A stretch of DNA of 64,000 nucleotides, taken from contig NC_045147.1 in assembly GCF_008831285.2 (NCBI RefSeq), positions 14,238,854 to 14,302,853 of the forward strand. Direction: 5' to 3'. Under the pieces are notes generated by a model that was not told the DNA's origin, made no database searches, and saw nothing but the letters and a program-made list of their open reading frames with translations. The position numbers were made by a program, and so were the translations under genes. Shown here piece after piece: positions 4,318 through 62,600 of this stretch; within the stretch, counting starts at the first letter, position 1; each line of letters opens with the position of its first letter. The DNA comes from Nymphaea colorata. Taxonomy: Eukaryota > Streptophyta > Magnoliopsida > Nymphaeales > Nymphaeaceae.

Positions 4318-5973
4318 TGAATTATGTCTCCCCAACTAGGCCTCTTACATGTCTTTTTAACCTTTCTCAGGTATAACTGCACAGAGGCATAACTTTTGAA
4401 AACATAAGAATAAAATATGGAAATCTAATGTCCAAGTTGAATCTATAAAGGAAAGAAAACTAATTCCATTAATTGTGTTATTCTATAAAATATGATTTAC
4501 ATATAAAATTTTCATAATCTTCTTCCCATTTAAACATTTTACTCTGTCTATACGGCTAAATTTGTGAAAAGCAACGTTGGCGTTGCTTGAGAAGCAGAAG
4601 GCCCAAATAGCAAGAGGAAAATGGAATGTTCATGATCGAGTATTCACACACGCACGCAAATATATCTATACAACGACTAGCTAAGGTGTCTCACATCCTT
4701 GAAAAATGCAATATACTCTCTCATCATTGTAATATCAGATCTCTACGGGATTAAAACAAGAGAGTTAGAATGAATCAACAATTACATTTCAGATTTTTCA
4801 ACAACAGCCCCTCTCATGCACGATGGTATTTTCATCATCAAATGACTAATTTCATTTTTTTATTATGATAATGTAAAAAGCAATTATGAACAAGGGTCAT
4901 GAAGAGAAGGAAGTACGCACCCTCTCAGCTTGCCCTGTTGAAATAGTATCTTTGGGTTAAGTTATTATAAAGTAGATCATTGTCTATTGTATCTTGATTA
5001 GTGATCTGGAGAAAACATTTTGAATATGATCCTTGAGCTAGTTGTTTCCTTTTCCCCTCATGCACATCTTGGTGTCGCCCACACGAAACATCCCATGTGG
5101 ATGGCAACCAGATGGATGCCATTTTCTACTCCCATTTGGCTTTCAGTCGCTTTTTGGGTCCACACGAAGTGAGACATCGCCCATTTCCTGCTGCACAACT
5201 CTCATCATATATATAAACTCCAGATCTGTCCAACTGTCTCACATGCATCTCAAGGAGCCCCCATTACTTCTCTCCTCACCTCCTATCTGTACCACAATAC
5301 TTTGAAAAAAAAAACACCCAACATCCTCACTGGACCGTCTGTATCTGCTGACACAGCTATAGTGGACCACTACAATATTCTCTCTCTTTATTTCTCTCCA
5401 AATGATGGGTAATGGAACAGGGTTGGGTGCTGTGTTATTGTTATATCCTCGTTTCAATTCTTGGAGGGTGTTGTCCCTCTGTTGCACTAAGAGTTGAAAT
5501 TTGATCTCTGGCCAGGCAGACAGATAAATTGTAACAAGTATAGCAACGTTGATGCTAAATAGCAATCATAGGCCTTTCTGGTTGAGCAAAAAACTTCCCA
5601 CTTTTTTCTTTATGAAACGGCATATCATGTTTAGGATGTAAAAGGGGCTTTGGAAATTGAATGGTCGGCCTTACGTGCCGGGTACTGTAAGGCCGGAAAA
5701 ACATGTATTCCAAATTAGATGTGTTTAACTTGGTCTCATTTACTAGAAATGGCATTTTATCTTGTCTTTTATTATTAAATATGATATAGTGAATCCTGAG
5801 ATTGGGTAGATACGAGCAGCTGGATTTTGTAGGCACTCCCTTGTCTGCCACGGATCACAGTCTTACGTTTGAGAAGGAAGTAGTTAGTACATTTTTGCTG
5901 GTCAGATCATCTAAGTTTTCTAAAAAGAAAGCTTTCTAAATTGTAGAATTCTTTTTGATGATATGCTCAATCA

Positions 5974-9161: not shown

Positions 9162-9215
9162 TAAGGGCTCGTTTGATTGCCCAGAAAAATTTGGTGGAGG
9201 GGTTGAAATAATGTA

Positions 9216-9241
9216 CGGGCGGGTGAAATTTCACCCGCCCG
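9216..9241. repeat. Perfect 26-bp subterminal palindrome
   Basis: The sequence is self-complementary over its whole length and centres on GTGAAATTTCAC. A second, shorter GTGAAATTTCACCCG copy follows at about 9262. Both lie inside the left end of the Harbinger element and may be transposase-binding or hairpin sites. Confidence 0.85.
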
Positions 9242-10063
9242 ATGCAAAAACCATCAAACGGGGTGAAATTTCACCCGCTCGACATTTTCCTTCCGAAGGC
9301 ATTCACCCGCGCGTCTTCCTCCGCAGTCAACGATCTCCCTCACATTGGAGAATAGCTGCCTGCTCACCGTCGCCACTCCGCCATCGCCGCTCTCACCGCC
9401 GCCGCTCTGCCGTCGCTGCTCAACCCTCGCCGCTTCCCTCGGGTTCCGTCTACTTCCCCTCCTTCATCGCTGCCGCTCAACCCTCGCTGCTTCCCTCAGG
9501 TTCCTTTTTCACACTGACTGGTTTTGTCAATGGATCAATTCATGGGTTCGTCTTCTCTCTTGGAGATGTGAGTGTCAAGACTCTTGAGTAGTTAATGGAT
9601 GTTCAGTCCAACTCGAAAACTTCCCCAAAATCTGCTTCGTTTTGGACAGAGGCTGGTGGCGATGAGTTTTTGTTTTTGGGGATCTTCGTTTTCTGGATCA
9701 ATTAGCAGGAATTTTGTGTAATTCAGTAACTTAATTATTTTGGAAGAAATATGGCGATTGGAGATGAATTGGGTGCTTCCAAGAAGAAATTGAAGAATGG
9801 TAACATTGATGTGCTATCTTCAACGCTGAGAATTTGCAGAACAATATGAAAACTATCTATTACAGGTTCTTTTTTGAATCCCTGCGATTCTGGATGTCCT
9901 GTTTTTTTCCTTGAAGCGTGCATATTTTTTTAGATCAATTCATCAACTAGTTTCATAATATGTAGCCAGATCTGGTGTTTTCACGACGTCGTTCACAGAT
10001 TTGGAGCTGAAAAACGAGAGTCAAGTTGAATGCATTTCGACCCAGGCTAATTCGGTTTTTCCC

Positions 10064-10195
10064 TTCTTGGCACAGAGGATCTCCTCCGAATGCAATGTCT
10101 GCACTTTGTGAAGCCACAGGAGCAGATAAAGCAGGTCATCAAGATCAATGACTACCAAAATTGCGGTTCTCGGCTTTGCATTCAAGAAAGACACA
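10064..10195 (+). pseudogene. UDP-glucose 6-dehydrogenase fragment captured in a transposon
   Basis: Three blocks match the highly conserved plant UDP-glucose dehydrogenase protein, in order but in shifted frames. They are FLAQRISS (10064-10087), NAMSALCEATGAD (10089-10127) and KQVIKINDYQ (10129-10158), then KIAVLGFAFKKDT (10157-10195). In the intact enzyme the first two blocks are separated by one Val codon, so two bases are missing here. The second and third blocks normally lie tens of residues apart, and the third and fourth about twenty, so internal deletions have joined them. The fragment cannot encode an active enzyme. It sits inside the Harbinger-type element, which implies transduplication of host coding sequence. 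Recognition rests on recalled family sequence. Confidence 0.85.
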
Positions 10196-11087
10196 GAGAG
10201 ACATCAGTTCCTGGGTTAGTGACAGTGCACTGGACGAAAAGCTTGTTGGTTTGTTGGGACCAGAGAGACATCAGTTCTTCAGCATCCTGAAAAATTGCCT
10301 TTTGCTTCTAGAGAGTGGACAATCTTATGTTGATTCTGATGTTCTTTAGCACTTGAATGTATACAGTGAAGTTAAAGGCAATTTTTTCTCTCTGATGTTC
10401 AACAGGTTTCAAGTAAACTGCAATTTGATTGACCTTCGTAAACAGAAATTTGATTGACCTTCCTGTAAACTGCAGTACCAATTTCATATTATGTTAGTGT
10501 TTGCTGCATTCTCTGCTTTCATGTTGTTGCAGCTTAGGTAGCCAACTAGTAACGGTTGCCTGCTAGCAAATAGCTGTGTTTTGAGTAATGGTGTGCTTTG
10601 GTTTAATACATTTTTGTCAAGTGAAAATCTTCACATCAGAAACAAAAAACTTTGTCATGGCAGTGCCTCTCTTCATATGATTCATTAGCATATAGATATG
10701 CTAAAATGCTTTATGGATCACATTTAGCTGTTACTTTTGCAATTATGTTTGGTTTGGCTAATGTTATATCATGTGAAGGATTTTGCAAGTTACTGCTTGT
10801 TGAACTGAATTAAAGTGCTGAAAGTTGAAAGTCACTTTTTTGCACTCAACTGGGTTTTCATGCTTGATTGCAACCTCAATTCGTTGGTAAATAAATAGGC
10901 CATTCCATTGGTTGTGTGTCTAGAATTTGGTTTTAGATGACCAAAAAAATAGACCATGCTTGTCTGCACGGGTTATATAAACAAAGAGGAAATTGAGGAA
11001 GAGAAGGAAAAGAAAAACAACTACTACTAACAGTCTTAAAAAAAAATCTCTCAAATTTTCTACTTTGTGCATCAAACAAGGTTAATT

Positions 11088-11227
11088 TTACCACGTTAAA
11101 TTCTACCCTGTCATCAAACAGAGCCTCAGATTAGAAGAGGGAGAAATTTCATCATGTAAATTTTTTCAAAAAAATTTACCATGATAAATTTACCACGTTA
11201 AATTCTTCCTGTGCATCAAACGAGCCC
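11088..11227. repeat. Duplicated right end of the Harbinger element
   Basis: ttaccacgttaaattct occurs at 11088-11104 and again near 11190. Each copy is followed within about 10 bp by a terminal-like phrase, catcaaacagagcct at about 11112 and catcaaacgagccct at 11214. A third partial terminus (catcaaacaagg) lies at about 11070. The right end was therefore duplicated locally, or a related element inserted next to it. Confidence 0.7.
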
Positions 11228-11230
11228 TAA

Positions 11231-12993: not shown

Positions 12994-13533
12994 TCAAGGC
13001 CCGTGGTATGGCAGAGGAGGAGGAAGAGTGTAACCAGCTGGTGATGGGGTTTGAAGATACGGAGGAGGAGATGGTTGTTTAGATGGTGGACTCTTGCTGA
13101 TGTATGGCGGTGGCGGTGGCGGTGGTGAAGGGATAGAGATAGCGGGTGATGGTAGCCTGTAGGGAGAAGGTGCCGCCGGCGGCGGTGGTGAAGGGGTAGA
13201 GGGAGCGGGTGGCGGTAGCCTGTAGGGAGAAGGTGCCGCCGGCGGTGGCGGACCTGGTCGCAGTGGAGCATCAGGGTTGTGTACGGGAGGAGGCGTCGGC
13301 TGCAGTGCCGGCGTTCGTGACGATGATAGCGGAGGAGCAGCAGCGAGAGGCGGAGGTAAGGGAACAGTTGGAGATGTGACATTGGAGCCATTGTGTGCTA
13401 AATGGTCAGAAGGTGGAAGAGATGGAACTCCATCGTTGCAGACTGCATGTCCTGGCATGTATAAGAGGATCAGAGATGGAAACAGCAGAACGACACTGGT
13501 GACCATCTTCCCTTCCACCTTCAAGGGCTCCAT
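12994..13533 (-). CDS. Secreted proline-rich / extensin-like protein
   Basis: The frame encodes 179 residues without an intron. A hydrophobic segment at about residues 11-30 (VTSVVLLFPSLILLY) ending near AVC is a likely signal peptide. Met10 is an alternative start. The rest is about one-third Pro with Ser, Ala, Tyr and Arg. It includes SPPPP and longer Pro runs typical of extensin hydroxylation and arabinosylation sites, and YRLP and PPPY motifs. PPPPAAPSPYRLP occurs at residues 95-107 and 116-128, a 21-residue period. No kinase, pollen-Ole or LRR domain is present, so this is a small cell-wall proline-rich protein rather than a PERK or LRX. A TATA box lies 65-72 bp upstream of the ATG. Another minus-strand frame is also open over much of this GC-rich stretch, but it lacks a signal peptide and ordered repeats. 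Confidence 0.8.
   Translation of the reverse strand: MEPLKVEGKMVTSVVLLFPSLILLYMPGHAVCNDGVPSLPPSDHLAHNGSNVTSPTVPLPPPLAAAPPLSSSRTPALQPTPPPVHNPDAPLRPGPPPPAAPSPYRLPPPAPSTPSPPPPAAPSPYRLPSPAISIPSPPPPPPPYISKSPPSKQPSPPPYLQTPSPAGYTLPPPLPYHGP
13126..13251 (-). repeat. 63-bp in-frame tandem duplication in the proline-rich gene
   Basis: Two 63-bp units encode residues 95-115 and 116-136, both containing PPPPAAPSPYRLP. The DNA identity is high, including gtagcctgtagggagaagg in both units, which implies a recent duplication. Confidence 0.85.
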
Positions 13534-17990: not shown

Positions 17991-18791
17991 CAATCAGCTT
18001 GAGTCTTGTGCTTATCTCTTACATTGCACAACCAGGTGAACCTCTGTCCTCCCTAAGCTGAAGGTTATCCAAGCCTTTTTGAAGATGGACGGCCTTATTT
18101 CCAACTCCAATTATGCAAACATGCTTTAACACGATTGCAGGGCAAAAGAAAAAGTTAAGAATCAAAGTTACATACACAGATCCTTTCATATTGCAGAGCT
18201 CGTCACAAACAAATCCTTTGATGGTGCGGAGCACAAAGCTAATTGAATAATCTGCAAATCTGTACTAAATGATATTAGTTTCATCACGAAAAACGTCTCA
18301 AGAAATTTTCCGATCACATAAGAAATGAGATTTGGCAGATCATGCATATGATGTGCTCGGCTTCGGAGATCGTAGAGAATATGAAGACATGAGACTTGAT
18401 AGTTGCTGATAAACCTGAACTCATTTAGTAAGATCTGAATAAATGCCTCTCAAAGCATGTGTTTAGCCAATAAAACCCTGCCCTTTTCCAACTTAGTCAA
18501 ATCATTCAAATTCAGGTCCAGTTTAACTCTAAATTCGAACAGAAATGTTGATTAAAACAAACCAGATGAGCAAAAACTTAGTAATATTTAGAGCCAATTA
18601 CTCCTTAAAGTAGAGGTTTGTAACCAATGACTAAACACTGGATTTTAGATCTTCTTATTAAGCGGTGCATCAGGGATCTCATCCTTCGCCTAATGCTTGG
18701 ATCTAAACACGCGATTCCGTAGCAGATCCAACATTCCAGAATTCAAAGGTACCCACCGCCACAGGTTCTGTTGGGGGAGTCGGAAGATGGT
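17991..18791. other. Intergenic region upstream of the second PPR gene
   Basis: No gene is recognised. The 18040-18240 stretch may hold more 5' LINE sequence, too decayed to read. The last 100-150 bases include the leader of the PPR gene. Confidence 0.45.
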
Positions 18792-20324
18792 ATGAACCGG
18801 ATCAGAGAAGTTCACGCCTACGCCCTCAGAAACGGCGTGGAGCAGACCAAGTTCCTGATCACGAAGCTCCTGGAGATCCCCTGCATCGACTACGCGCGAG
18901 CCATCTTTGATCGAGCCATCAATCCGGAGCTCTTCCTCTACAACAAACTCATACAGCATTACTCCTCCCATGGCCCCTGCGAGCAGTGCCTCTCTCTCTA
19001 CTCCAGTCTGTGCCGCCTTGGCCGCCTACCTAACGAGTACACCTTTCCCTTCATGCTTAAGGCTTGCGCCTCTCTTCTCTCCGCCGGAGACGGCCGGAAC
19101 CTCCATACCCACATCGTCAAATTGGGTTTTGGATCGGATGTTTTCGTTTCCACTGCGATGATTGACATGTATGCGAAGAGCGGATGTTTGGAAGACGCAC
19201 ACGGCGTGTTTGATGAAATGCCTGAGAGAGACGTGCCCTCTTGGAACTCGCTTATTGGCGGGTATGCGAGGCTAGGGCGTTTGAGCATTGCGAAGGAGCT
19301 GTTTGACCGGATGGGTTACCGCAGGAACGTGATCTCGTGGACCTCCGTGGTTTCGGGGTACGCACAGAACGGGCAGTATCACGAAGCCGTGGATATGTAT
19401 GTGAAGATGGTAGAGGAAGGCCTGAAGCCAAACCATGTGACGATTGCTAGTGTTCTTCCTGCTTGTGCTCATCTTGGAGCGTTGGACATGGGGGAAAGGA
19501 TAGATGTGTATGCTAGGGAGAATGACTATTTCCAGAACATATTTGTGAGTAATGCGCTGGTTGAGATGTACGCCAAGTGCGGAAAGATCGATTCTGCACG
19601 GCGCGTGTTCGGTGAGATTGCGGAGAAGAATGTTTGTTCATGGAATTCGATGATTACAGGGTTGGCAGTACATGGTAGATGGCGAGAAGCTCTTACTCTG
19701 TTTGAAGATATGCAAAGTGAAGGCTTCATTCCTGATGATATCACCTTTGTTGGTGTTCTATGTGCGTGCACTCATGGAGGGCTAGTGAAGCAAGGGCGAC
19801 AGTATTTCAATTTTATGAAGAGCAGATTCGGCATTTCGCCTAAATTGGAGCACTACAGTTGCATGGTTGATCTTCTTGGTCGAGCCGGGCTGCTGAGAGA
19901 AGCTTACGAAATGCTAATGAAGATGCCGATGAAGCCAGATTCAGTTGTTTGGGGAACACTGCTTGGTGCTTGTAGCTTCCATGCCAATGTAGAGATTGGT
20001 GAGGCAGCAGCCGAGAAGCTTTTCGAGCTTGAGCCCTGGAATCCAGGAAACTATGTGATCATGTCCAATATATATGCTGCTAGAGGCAGATGGGATGGAG
20101 TTGCAAGGATTAGGCTCCGGATGAAAGGCCGATCTCTGCAGAAGGCTGCAGGCTACAGCTTAATTGAAGAAGATGGAATCCTCCACAAGTTCACGGTCGA
20201 AGATAATTCACACCCATACAGCTATCAGATTTACAGGTTACTAGATGAACTCACCTCGCAGATGAAACTTGTCGGCTATGTGCCAACTGTAGAATTTGAG
20301 ACAGTGGATGGTATTTCATTGTGA
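18792..20324 (+). CDS. PLS-class PPR protein with E/E+ tail, At5g08510-like
   Basis: An intronless frame encodes 510 residues from the ATG at 18792. The pattern alternates P, L and S repeats, for example FVSTAMIDMYAKSGCLEDA, NVISWTSVVSGYAQNG and FVSNALVEMYAKCGKIDSA. It ends with E and E+ motifs (EHYSCMVDLLGRAG, VVWGTLLGACSFH, NYVIMSNIYAARGRWDGV, GYSLIEEDGILHKFTVED). There is no DYW deaminase domain. Such proteins specify C-to-U RNA editing sites in mitochondria or plastids and recruit a deaminase in trans. The sequence resembles my recollection of Arabidopsis At5g08510 throughout, including the N-terminal HAYALRNGVEQTK. I chose 18792 because that protein starts at the equivalent Met. The ATG at 18771 adds seven residues in frame and is possible. 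An obvious transit peptide is lacking, which this family member shares. Confidence 0.92.
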   Translation: MNRIREVHAYALRNGVEQTKFLITKLLEIPCIDYARAIFDRAINPELFLYNKLIQHYSSHGPCEQCLSLYSSLCRLGRLPNEYTFPFMLKACASLLSAGDGRNLHTHIVKLGFGSDVFVSTAMIDMYAKSGCLEDAHGVFDEMPERDVPSWNSLIGGYARLGRLSIAKELFDRMGYRRNVISWTSVVSGYAQNGQYHEAVDMYVKMVEEGLKPNHVTIASVLPACAHLGALDMGERIDVYARENDYFQNIFVSNALVEMYAKCGKIDSARRVFGEIAEKNVCSWNSMITGLAVHGRWREALTLFEDMQSEGFIPDDITFVGVLCACTHGGLVKQGRQYFNFMKSRFGISPKLEHYSCMVDLLGRAGLLREAYEMLMKMPMKPDSVVWGTLLGACSFHANVEIGEAAAEKLFELEPWNPGNYVIMSNIYAARGRWDGVARIRLRMKGRSLQKAAGYSLIEEDGILHKFTVEDNSHPYSYQIYRLLDELTSQMKLVGYVPTVEFETVDGISL

Positions 20325-22495: not shown

Positions 22496-27950
<5,455 letters not shown>

Positions 27951-28398
27951 GTTTTTTTTTTTCCACAAGAAAGTTTGCTCTCTGATCAAATCCAATCTTT
28001 GCTAGTAGCTTCGATATCAAGAACGCCTACTGACTCCTTCCCCCTGGGCACAAGCCAAGGACTAACAAACGAGAAGAAGATACTCAATACCAAGAAATTG
28101 GTCAAATGATTTTCAGAAAAATAAGAAATTTAGCGAGTAACAGAGATTCATAATGGGCACCAACCTACTGTTCTGCAGTTTGGTGTGGTTGGCAAACAAA
28201 ATATTCACGATCTGTGAACCAAAAGCTACTAGTAAATTGAAATAAAACGAGACACTTGAACATCTCGAGAAACTATTTCGTCTACAAAAAATTATTGCAT
28301 AGACGCAAACAATTAGAAACCTAAGCATCTTCTTATGCCGTTTCGCAGGAGTCTTTTGGGTGTTGCGCAAGGGTCCTCCCCTGTGTTTGCAACGAAAC

Positions 28399-40205: not shown

Positions 40206-41639
40206 TGTTGAAAGAGTCCCATTTTTAGACTAACTATTCTAGCTCATTTTCTTCCCTTACTTGCTCACCTACTTTTCCTTTTCTATCTCTCTTTTTTTTT
40301 TTTAACACAATTTTCCTCTCCACCTTAAGATCTGTGGATCTTAAGGATGAAAATGGACTTAAAACTTAGTCCTATTCTGGGACGAGCTTTGCTCATATAT
40401 AATGCTGCAAAGACGGATGTATCAAGTGGTACATAATGGTCCTTGTGGTGCCAGATTAAGAATATGTTCACGGAATATGACATAAGGACAAAAGTCATTG
40501 TTTCAGCTATTAAATGAGAACAGTTGATGGTTTAGCACATAAAATGTATGTTTGTTATTGAAAAAATATTATCGGTAATCGTAGAAGATACTATCAATAA
40601 TAAGTCTTTGTCCGAGAACCTAAATGAAATGGAGCTGGTGGTGGAAATGAGAGTGTGGCTGTTAATGTAGTAAAAATTTCTGAACATTTTCTTTTAGAAG
40701 TACCTGAATTGATCTCTATTCTTATCTGCATTATTTATCTCCTAAATTTTGCAGTGAGAGAGAGGTTAACAATTCACCGCCCAAAAAAGAGGCTCGGAAC
40801 CCCCTGCTTCCTAGATCCTGAGCTGCATCAGTATCAACAATGACAACAATACACCTTTCACCTTAAGTACTACACTCCACCGTGTAAGGCTGAGAAACAC
40901 TACATCCACAAGAATCAAACTACAAACCTGGCTCCTTATAAGCCCCTAGCCTGACCAGCTACACTGTAACCTGACCAACTAGAGTATGCTTTTTAGGCTT
41001 GTCTCTGCCAAATTCAAACTCTTACACCGCCAAAGCAATAACTATTGTGGGTACAAGGCATTAATACTTATTAAATGCACACAAATCAAACAAGGCCTTC
41101 AATGATCTTTAAAACCTAAAACAATTATAATTGAAATTTTCAGGTACAATAAGGAACAGGATTGAAATTTGGATTCCCTTCGAACTTTAAATTTCAAATG
41201 TAAGGTTCAGTCTTTCAATTTCTCCGAATTGAATCCAGAATCTTAGTTTCATTAAAACATGGCAGGGATCGCTGGGAGATCCTCTCCCCATCCTTTTTGA
41301 ATTTCAAAACTAAAACTTGGAAATTTCAATTCTTAATTTGAACGAAAAGAAGTTTCAAACATTAGTCTGGTGTGGAAATATCGCGTGCGTCTGAACTCAA
41401 GTTTGTGTTTGGAGAAGAAGCCAAATTTGGTATTAGAGTCTGTTTACCAATAGTAAGTTTACTAGCTTGAAGATGCTTCCCAAATATTCCATGGACAAAG
41501 TCAATTCCAAATTGCTTTGCCGTTTTTCTATCTTTAGGTTTTTATATGTAAACAAAAAATTGACAGTCTTCTAACAAATGACCCACTGTTTGAAATGTTG
41601 AGATTACTCGAGTCCCAAAGTCCAGGATACCAGTTACAA

Positions 41640-41751
41640 TTGACATGTAGAACAGGATTAATCCATGGAGAAGGCATAACATGAATTATTTTACAGTTGA
41701 CATGTAGAACAGGAATAATCCATGGTGAAGGCATAACATGAATTATTTCAG
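41640..41751. repeat. 57-bp tandem duplication just downstream of ECA2 copy B
   Basis: Two units (41640-41696 and 41697-41751) share ttgacatgtagaacagg and aggcataacatgaattatt with a few differences. They start about 115 bp beyond the ECA2-B stop codon and may lie in its 3' UTR. Confidence 0.88.
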
Positions 41752-41864
41752 TTACTTCTTTTTCCCCTTGCAATAAACAAATGCAGCATACTTTCTTTCA
41801 TTTGGAATGAACTTCCTAAAGAATTAAGTGTAAAGAAGAAAACTTGATATCATACTGAAGGGGA

Positions 41865-46573
<4,709 letters not shown>

Positions 46574-55364: not shown

Positions 55365-55715
55365 GGTATCCGTAACTTTTCAGAGTCACCAAACTATCAA
55401 ACCAAAGCTATTTGATTTACTATGATGAACGGTTGCAAGAAAAATGTGAAAGGTATCTTTGTAATCTAGCATCAGGCATTTTTTCTCTTTTTTTTTTCAA
55501 CCATCTATCTATTTCAGATAGACAAGCAAAGTCATCATTCACTCACTCATATATATGTATATATAAAAGTTAAAGTATGTAATTAGAAAACACTTGCCAA
55601 TTGCCATAACAGTACTAGCAATGGTGCAGTAATAGTTTATGGTGCTTTTAACATGAAACTATAAGATGTTAACTGAAATCCTGATAGTTCAGATCTTAGT
55701 CACAAATAATATTTC

Positions 55716-56025
55716 TGAGTTTTAAACAGCAAAGCTTTTCTCAGGTATAATACGGCGAGCTTGAAAAAACTTGAAAAATACTGTAAATTTTTAAAAATTA
55801 AAAAAAAAAACTAAAAATATGTGAAAAGTAAAATAAATGAGAAACTTATAGCACAAATATCAAAAGATAAGTAGATTTGCAACAAATAAAAATAGAAAAT
55901 GAAAAGAAACTGTTTGGCATAAAAAAATAAAAAAAAAGTGAAAAAAAAATGCATTTTTTTTAGTTTTAAACGGCAGTTTAATTTATTGTGTTATTTCCTA
56001 AAAAAAATGTTGGTTTTGTGACACT
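55716..56025 (+). repeat. Dispersed A-rich repeat, family X, copy 2
   Basis: Starts with gagttttaaacagcaaagc and ttttctcaggtataat, then cggcgagcttgaaaaa. Further on it has caaaagataagtagatttg, aacaaataaaaa, ctgtttggcataaaaaaa and ttttaaacggcagtttaat. It is the most complete copy by eye. Copies 1 and 3 share these phrases in the same order. Confidence 0.8.
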
Positions 56026-60401: not shown

Positions 60402-62278
60402 TGGGCAGTTTGACTACAGTAACATACCGTAAATCTATGCCAAATGGGTAGATTCATGGCGCCCTATAATACATTGTTCCATGAATTTGCTTCATTTTTA
60501 AGATAGATTTATTAAACAGTAACATAATGTTACTGTTGCCAAACAGCTCCTTAAAATTTTTGACATATTTTGCCCTTGGTGTGTAACAATTGACAAATTT
60601 ATCTTCTTTGTTTTTGCAATTTCAAGACAATTTTTTATTACTTTGATACTGGCATTTGGCCTTATCAAATTGTTCCACTTTTTTGTGGGTGGGGGAAGGA
60701 TTTCTTTGACAAATTCAACCTGAAAAACTTGTTTCGACCACAAGAAAGTGTGGGGATATTTCTCTGCAATAACAGGGCATGGGTGAATTCTTGAATTGAA
60801 GAAAGAAACGCAACTTACTTTCACATTCTTACATTTCGTCGCAACCGAGCATGGCAAAAACTCTTTCCTCTTTTATTTATGTTTTCTTATATGTATTTGG
60901 TATAGCTTTTTGAGAAAACCTAAGACTCCAGAACTCTTTCCTTGATAGCATATTGGAAAAAAAATCTTCTTTTTCTCTCTTCAAACACACTTCCTACCCG
61001 TCTTTGTTAATCTTTTCCAATTTGGTCCTCTCTCACTGTAATATATATATATATATACGAGAGAGAGAGAGAGAGAGTCTGTGGAGTGTTAGAATGTGTA
61101 CAGGATCAAGACTTCTTTGCAGAAAATGCTGAACATTCTTCTTTATTCAATTACTATCGTGATTAATTATTGTGCGACGGAATTGAATACGTTTTTCTGC
61201 TAAGTTGCACGTCTTTTTGGCAGGCTTTTTTATATTCAATCGATGGTCAATGGATTAACAACGTGGATTCACCGATTCGATGTGCCAAATCGAAGCATTA
61301 ATGGAGACGTCGGCAACCTCAACTGCTCAGCACTCAATGTGAAATTCTACAGTTTGAAAAATTGCAAGTGCGCGCGGTGAGATTGAACTTCTTGTTGATA
61401 CGATGGTGATGCTGCGATGACGCAGATGTCCCTGTTGCACAAACTTCTGTGCAATTTTTGTTTCAGAAATGAGCTTCAATTCGTTTTCTTATCATATCTT
61501 TTTAGAAATTTAACCATACTAATGAGATAACTTGATGTCCAGAACCAGTCAGATAAGAACATGAGATCCCACGAGTCACAAAGATCAACTGCGACAGATC
61601 TATAAAAACTATAAATATTTATTAAACAGCGCTCCAATGAAAAGTTTCTGGGCTTTGAGCTACAAAAATCACATCTCCTTTCTTAGAAGGTTTAGAACAT
61701 TCAGGAGTCTACAACATCCTCTGCACAAAAATCATAGATTTCAATCTAATCAAGTTTCTGAAGGCCATTAAATCTTACCTGCCCATTTTCTAAGAAAGGA
61801 TTTTCTGGATCTGGATTAGACTTTTAGTCTCTGCTTGGAAAAAGGGCAATGGACTGAGAATAAACTTCAAAAAATCAACATACAGAAATTCAACTTCAAC
61901 ATTGTTTATGCAATTGGACTGCACCTGATCCATGCTCTAGAAGACGTCAAAAGGCGAAATTTTTTTCGCAAATGCGAGGGCAATACAGGAATTTGGGGTC
62001 ACGGCCATGCAGCTTCCAGGAAGGAGAGGAATTGGCGTTTAATGGTGGAAATAAGGTGAATGAAGGTGACTTGTGGGGGAAGGTCAAGTTGTTCTTGCTT
62101 TTGGTTTTGTTAGGCCACCCCCACTTTCCTGGTGCCTTCCTCCTTCTTCCCTTCATTGACATTCATATCTTTACAATAATGCTGCACTATTCTATAGTAC
62201 CCGTTTCGTATCGGCAGCTTGGTACCGGCTTTATTGTTTTTTAGAAAACTCGAGTTTGATTCGAAACCACAAATAACA
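60402..62278. other. Intergenic region, no gene recognised
   Basis: AT-rich, with a compound microsatellite at 61041-61077. Phrases near 60515-60545 (aacagtaacataatgttac) resemble text near 52600 and may be further transposon relics. Short open frames show no motifs. Confidence 0.45.
61041..61077. repeat. Compound (AT)n(GA)n microsatellite
   Basis: About eight AT units, then about nine GA units. Confidence 0.92.
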
Positions 62279-62600
62279 TCTCAGAGTTTTAAACAGCGAG
62301 GTTTTTTTCAGGTATAATATGGTGACCTTGAAAAAAACAAGAAAAATATGGTGATTTTTTTTAAATTTTAAAAAAATTAAAAATAAAAAAAAATAAAATA
62401 AGTAGGAAACTAATAACACAAACATCAAAAGATAAGTAGATTTGTAATAAATAAAAAATAAAAATAAATTGTTTGGCATTAAAAAAACTAAAAAAAGTGA
62501 AAAAAAACACATTCTTTTTTAACTTAAAAAAAACGTATTTTTTAAAGTTTTAAACCGTCATTTAATTTATCACGTATTAAAAAATGTACTTTTTAAACTT
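62279..62600 (+). repeat. Dispersed A-rich repeat, family X, copy 3
   Basis: Begins cagagttttaaacagcgagg and ttttttcaggtataatatgg. Later it has caaaagataagtagatttg, aataaataaaaa, ttgtttggcat and ttttaaaccgtcatttaat, in the same order as copy 2. Confidence 0.78.

Follow-up and report, generated by a model that had tools for sequence, protein, structure and literature searches.

UDP-glucose dehydrogenase gene pieces in a putative Pack-PIF family of a water lily

Most of what is understood of the shuffling of gene pieces by transposons comes from Mutator and CACTA elements. Pack-MULEs resemble the element described here in that they are cut-and-paste transposons with gene pieces, but differ in their target duplications, which are about 9 bp rather than the 3 bp found here. 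For PIF/Harbinger elements, gene capture was described in grapevine (PMC2528002) and in Caenorhabditis elegans (PMC2572040) in 2008, and Pack-PIFs were reported from maize and rice in 2022 (PMC8903248). The first-pass annotation of this locus had called capture by Harbinger-type elements seldom reported, which is only partly fair in view of these cases; in the available portion of a 2026 review of gene capture, the word Harbinger does not occur in the main text (PMC13317346). Among the matches listed in our literature search, the term Pack-PIF was used by PMC8903248 only, and an 11-base stretch of the element end led to no transposon paper, as judged by titles and the starts of abstracts.

As described in the available portions of these papers, the Pack-PIFs of maize and rice are like the elements reported here in being non-autonomous and multi-copy, with PIF ends, duplications that are mostly TTA or TAA, and pieces of host genes inside (PMC8903248), whereas the present elements come from another plant, allow a single donor gene and successive stages of one capture to be resolved, and show no fusion scar that we could find. 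Pifvine-3 of grapevine also belongs to the PIF superfamily, has TAA or TTA duplications and carries captured exons and introns that are common to several copies; however, its captured DNA forms a long extra 5′ region beside canonical ORFs, whereas the element reported here is without a transposase (PMC2528002). Turmoil-1 of C. elegans is likewise a Harbinger element with two captured coding pieces, but its host is an animal, its captures lie inside 760-bp inverted repeats and one complete copy has a transposase (PMC2572040). The family described below is new but its kind is known, and the record of it within this one genome is unusually full.

Ends and flanks of the window element and its family

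The window, which is the whole 64-kb stretch of DNA that was analysed (C10:14238854-14302853 of the host genome), contains an element of 2,063 bp (9165-11227) with the following terminal features.

9162..9164, no strand: left target-site duplication TAA, from flank comparison
9165..9177, plus strand: left terminal inverted repeat, 13 bp exact, GGGCTCGTTTGAT; the commonest form in the family is GGGCCCGTTTGAT
9165..9276, plus strand: family-conserved left end of about 112 bp with subterminal palindromes, from alignment and fold
11065..11227, plus strand: family-conserved right end (length about 160 bp); 102 bp inside lies an inner end-like motif, which the relative L048 has too
11215..11227, minus strand: right terminal inverted repeat, 13 bp exact, the inverted copy of GGGCTCGTTTGAT
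11228..11230, no strand: right target-site duplication TAA, from flank comparison

The DNA fold of 9165-9264 gave a z score of -4.1, and both ends of the element are self-folding. Elsewhere in the window, the plus strand has two PPR-protein genes (124-1860 and 18771-20324), and the minus strand has a pair of related P-type calcium-ATPase-like genes (22496-27995 and 41865-46573), which are 69-73% identical in their matching pieces. Short direct repeats, with 63- and 57-bp spacings, occur at 13114-13251 and 41634-41753, and a direct repeat of about 270 bp, 79% identical, is present at 55701-55970 and 62268-62529.

Exact 13-bp inverted pairs with a spacing of 100-4000 bp were counted in the 64-kb window and in 40 dinucleotide-preserving shuffles. 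One pair in the window had equal TAA or TTA flanks, as opposed to none in 40 of 40 shuffles. With any equal 3-bp flank there were 10 pairs in the window and a shuffle mean of 0.15, and with no flank rule the numbers were 3,290 and 7.4. Because so many pairs, which we take to be mostly simple repeats, are found when flanks are ignored, the weight of this test rests on the flank rule. The exact terminal repeats with matching TAA flanks that had been proposed for 9165..11227 are borne out.

The left end was then used to search the 407.8-Mb host assembly (783 contigs). The best 40 of 278 candidates lay at 40 distinct places, and 36 of the 40 were examined, the window included. Both ends were found at 32 of these 36 places, and the addition of L018 and a second element at L022 gave 34 two-ended elements; one end was not found for the first L022 element, L024, L036 and L038, nor for L016, which was found by a different search. 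Equal 3-bp flanks were present in 26 of the 34 two-ended elements (TTA 11, TAA 10, TCA 3, TGA 1 and CAA 1), a count in which one end of L041, L042, L045 and L047 was shifted by one base after the sequences had been seen, compared with 1.9% of random position pairs. Eight of the 34 were without equal flanks, among them L030 and the C6 copy (L040/L052). Two pairs of elements, L029/L031 and L045/L048, have common flanks and look like duplicated loci, which reduces the count to 24 of 32. With up to three mismatches allowed, a 20-bp form of the left end matched 264 sites, which are sites rather than elements, whereas the reversed control pattern matched 20. Members of the family have their ends in common and differ in their interiors. 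Ends and flanks that were not conserved in other copies would have argued against the first reading of the element; instead they are kept, and 21 of the 26 equal flanks are TAA or TTA.

Relatives that encode a transposase

The first-pass annotation also held that the element lacks a transposase. We found this to be so: compared with L048, a 5.6-kb relative with the same ends, the window element matches at its ends and at element positions 199-257 only, and it was not among the places of DDE_Tnp_4 matches listed by a genome profile search (best 150 of 307 candidates). L048 (5,599 bp, C13) contains an exon with DDE_Tnp_4 (4.2e-8) and an ORF with Myb_DNA-bind_3 (3.1e-14). L045 is 99.6% identical to it; its DDE_Tnp_4 match was below the cut-off in its own short ORF and above the cut-off, with stops, in the genome search. 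A further copy on C6 has its left end in L040 and its right end in L052, with DDE_Tnp_4 at 2.2e-17. Thus, there are three transposase-bearing copies from two independent insertions. The ends of the window element are only 83% identical to those of L048 over 108 bp and 80% over 157 bp, so the mobilising partner of the window subfamily may be an element other than L048.

An extra ORF of L048 (L048:4980-5342) encodes the N-terminal domain of RNase H1 (1.7e-16), and an equally long ORF occupies the corresponding position in L052 (L052:2220-2585); this extra ORF may itself be a captured piece of host sequence. Another element, L039:326-6084, is 5,759 bp long with family ends and TTA flanks; two of its ORFs were searched, and neither matched a Pfam domain. 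L020 was considered as a gene carrier and rejected, as it is an internal-deletion derivative of L048.

UGDH pieces, their donor and the class of the element

UDP-glucose dehydrogenase (UGDH) coding sequence had been proposed at 10064-10195. Its presence was upheld by DNA matches to a host gene, four pieces in order being 92, 97, 90 and 96% identical, with the coding pieces in different frames. The proposed coordinates did not hold, since the UGDH-derived part is 9929-10207 and takes in 132 bp from upstream of the donor start codon.

9929..10060, plus strand: captured stretch with 92% identity to donor L017 (reverse complement, 2628-2759), where it lies about 1.2 kb before the UGDH start codon
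10062..10128, plus strand: UGDH coding piece 1; donor 4616-4684, 97% identity; a 2-bp deletion breaks the frame
10129..10156, plus strand: UGDH coding piece 2; donor from 4843, 90% identity; donor 4685-4842 is lost, likewise in L009-L014
10157..10207, plus strand: UGDH coding piece 3; donor 4930-4979, 96% identity; preceded by a 58-bp deletion absent from L009-L014

Three short peptides, when joined, led to UGDH in a PDB search. Parts of the three forward frames of this region gave no Pfam match, the pieces being short and frame-broken, and as read from its sequence the cargo of the window element probably makes no enzyme. The short, frame-broken coding pieces also speak against a chimeric element that is expressed or serves as a source of small RNAs affecting the host UGDH gene; this would be improbable, even with stretches in nine carriers that are 85-97% identical to the apparently intact gene on C8.

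A genome search with the UGDH central domain found three stop-free genes, one on C8 and two on C7, together with the long carriers L015 and L016. The C8 gene (L017) has an unbroken coding frame with all three UGDH domains in one frame. As the first-pass annotation had suggested, the cargo was aligned with the host UGDH genes. L015 was 96.9% identical to the C8 gene over 782 aligned bases, compared with 77.9% and 71.0% for the two C7 paralogues, and the coding pieces of the window element were 97, 90 and 96% identical to the C8 gene, compared with 81-85% for the nearer C7 gene. By these identities, the intact C8 gene is the donor of the UGDH cargo.

Nine UGDH carriers were found at nine loci (the window element, L009-L014, L015 and L016), and in all nine the same junction joins upstream donor sequence to mid-coding sequence. 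Equal 3-bp flanks are present in six of the nine; L009, whose right end is decayed, and L013 are without them, and the left end of L016 was not found. The common junction, the nine loci and the six sets of equal flanks indicate that the cargo was multiplied by transposition. Independent insertion of the UGDH segment, the outcome that would have spoken against capture, was not found; the segment travels with the element.

The carriers differ in how much donor sequence they keep. The longest, L015 (C1), contains donor 2539-2759 and 4616-5397 and ends at the stop codon, and L016 (C2) contains donor 2668-2759 and 4616-4977. Donor 4685-4842 is missing from L009-L014 and the window element, which are 96.1-97.8% identical to one another over aligned bases. 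Among these seven, the further 58-bp loss is confined to the window element. Two more stretches that the other six keep are missing from it, one of 33-95 bp (element position 96) and one of 15-29 bp (element position 245). The window copy is the shortest UGDH carrier. Joints of deletions and captures, as we read them from the alignments, share 0-2 bases. The order of the carriers is partial: L016 keeps less of the upstream piece than L009-L014 do, so it is a side branch and no simple intermediate.

Insertion of a UGDH retrocopy or pseudogene into an existing element, apart from the transposon's own repair, would fit the intronless coding part and the exact end of the longest copy at the stop codon. 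However, the coding frame of the donor gene is itself unbroken, the captured piece takes in DNA that lies about 1.2 kb before the start codon, and there is no poly-A tract after the right boundary in L015. We therefore regard such an insertion as highly improbable.

PIF/Harbinger elements are recognized by a 3-bp duplication, mostly TTA or TAA, and by ends that are common with elements encoding a DDE transposase and a Myb-like protein. The window element has TAA on both sides and shares its ends with L048 and with the C6 copy, which has DDE_Tnp_4 in L052. The properties of Pack-TYPE elements are also present, namely no transposase of its own, an identifiable host donor and multiplied cargo. 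Other classes of gene-carrying element were rejected: a Pack-MULE, because the flanks of the window element agree over 3 bp only; CACTA, whose ends begin CACTA or CACTG, because the window ends begin GGGCTC; and a Helitron, which has neither inverted ends nor a target duplication, because inverted ends and a TAA duplication are present. From its ends, its flanks and its relatives, the window element is very probably a non-autonomous Pack-PIF moved in trans by the PIF transposase of relatives with the same ends. The original interpretation as a gene-capturing PIF/Harbinger element is supported by the ends, the 3-bp duplications, the transposase-bearing relatives and the UGDH donor.

Other host sequences and the route of capture

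In each of 17 further elements, one or two open stretches were chosen by eye and searched against Pfam, with no control set of random stretches; on this basis 10 of the 17 had a host-type domain above the cut-off.

L015: UGDH domain
L025, L032, L037, L047: PPR domain
L027, L029, L046: LRR domain
L026: OSCA-type channel domains
L028: amino-acid transporter domain

In the chosen stretches of six of the 17 (L018, L020, L022b, L033, L034 and L043) no Pfam domain was above the cut-off, and L041 gave nothing beyond a KIP1 match below the threshold. The OSCA piece of L026 matched locus L053 on C9 with 96% identity over 612 aligned bases, and L053 has the OSCA-type domains of L026 over a longer frame. 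L053, an OSCA-type gene on C9, is a second identified donor. Since the match overruns the end of the open frame of L053, this capture probably included intron or other non-coding DNA. The L026 cargo also matches a place on C5 (L054), where pieces resembling the family ends are present; L054 is probably a sister element. Most of the other matches of the L026 cargo may be sister elements too, C9 being the one that was checked as a gene.

Sequences from further sources lie on either side of the UGDH pieces in the window element.

9752..9934, plus strand: segment common to family elements (L027, L029 and L046 among them) that also encode leucine-rich repeats
10208..10349, plus strand: third-source pieces, 10208-10279 (99% to element L018, 93% to locus L019) and 10297-10349 (87% to L019)
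10367..10656, plus strand: piece 86% similar to locus L021 (C1:34751 kb)

Thus, the order is the segment shared with the LRR elements, then UGDH, then the L018/L019 and L021 pieces. We suggest that an element already holding other host-like DNA gained the UGDH DNA, most likely by repair of a break in the element with copying from other templates. The carrier would then have multiplied, shedding sequence by small deletions, and the window copy would be a late, shortened member. Repair copying is suggested by the several sources, by the 0-2-base joints and by the finding that the UGDH donor stretch, L019, L021 and the OSCA stretch are free of family ends. The two donor stretches would also result from a single contiguous capture and a later deletion of 1.86 kb.

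Another route is fusion of neighbours, in which two short elements flanked UGDH, their outer ends were used together and their inner ends were lost. This is a published Pack-TYPE model with a Pack-PIF example, as given in the available portion of the paper (PMC8903248), and the inner end-like motif in the right end and the self-folding of both ends are in line with it. However, we rejected the inner motif as a fusion scar, as it is also present in the transposase-bearing L048 and in other members, which makes it a feature of the family. In addition, motif scan and BLAST found no end-like motifs or end matches in the 7.5-kb UGDH donor stretch and no family ends in 8 kb at L019 or 5 kb at L021, and motif scan found none in the 2.6-kb OSCA stretch on C9, although old inner ends may have been lost. 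We consider fusion unlikely. A bolder reading, somewhat short of probable, is that the family is a serial collector of gene pieces that acquired genomic DNA of unlinked host genes by repair copying rather than by fusion of neighbours, and in which UGDH carriers from long forms to the shortest remnant persist.

These elements provide a clean PIF/Harbinger case, with donors (UGDH on C8 and an OSCA-type gene on C9), transposase-bearing relatives and partly ordered carriers, so that the gain and loss of gene pieces is testable in this family. The water-lily host would place such activity in an early-branching lineage of flowering plants.
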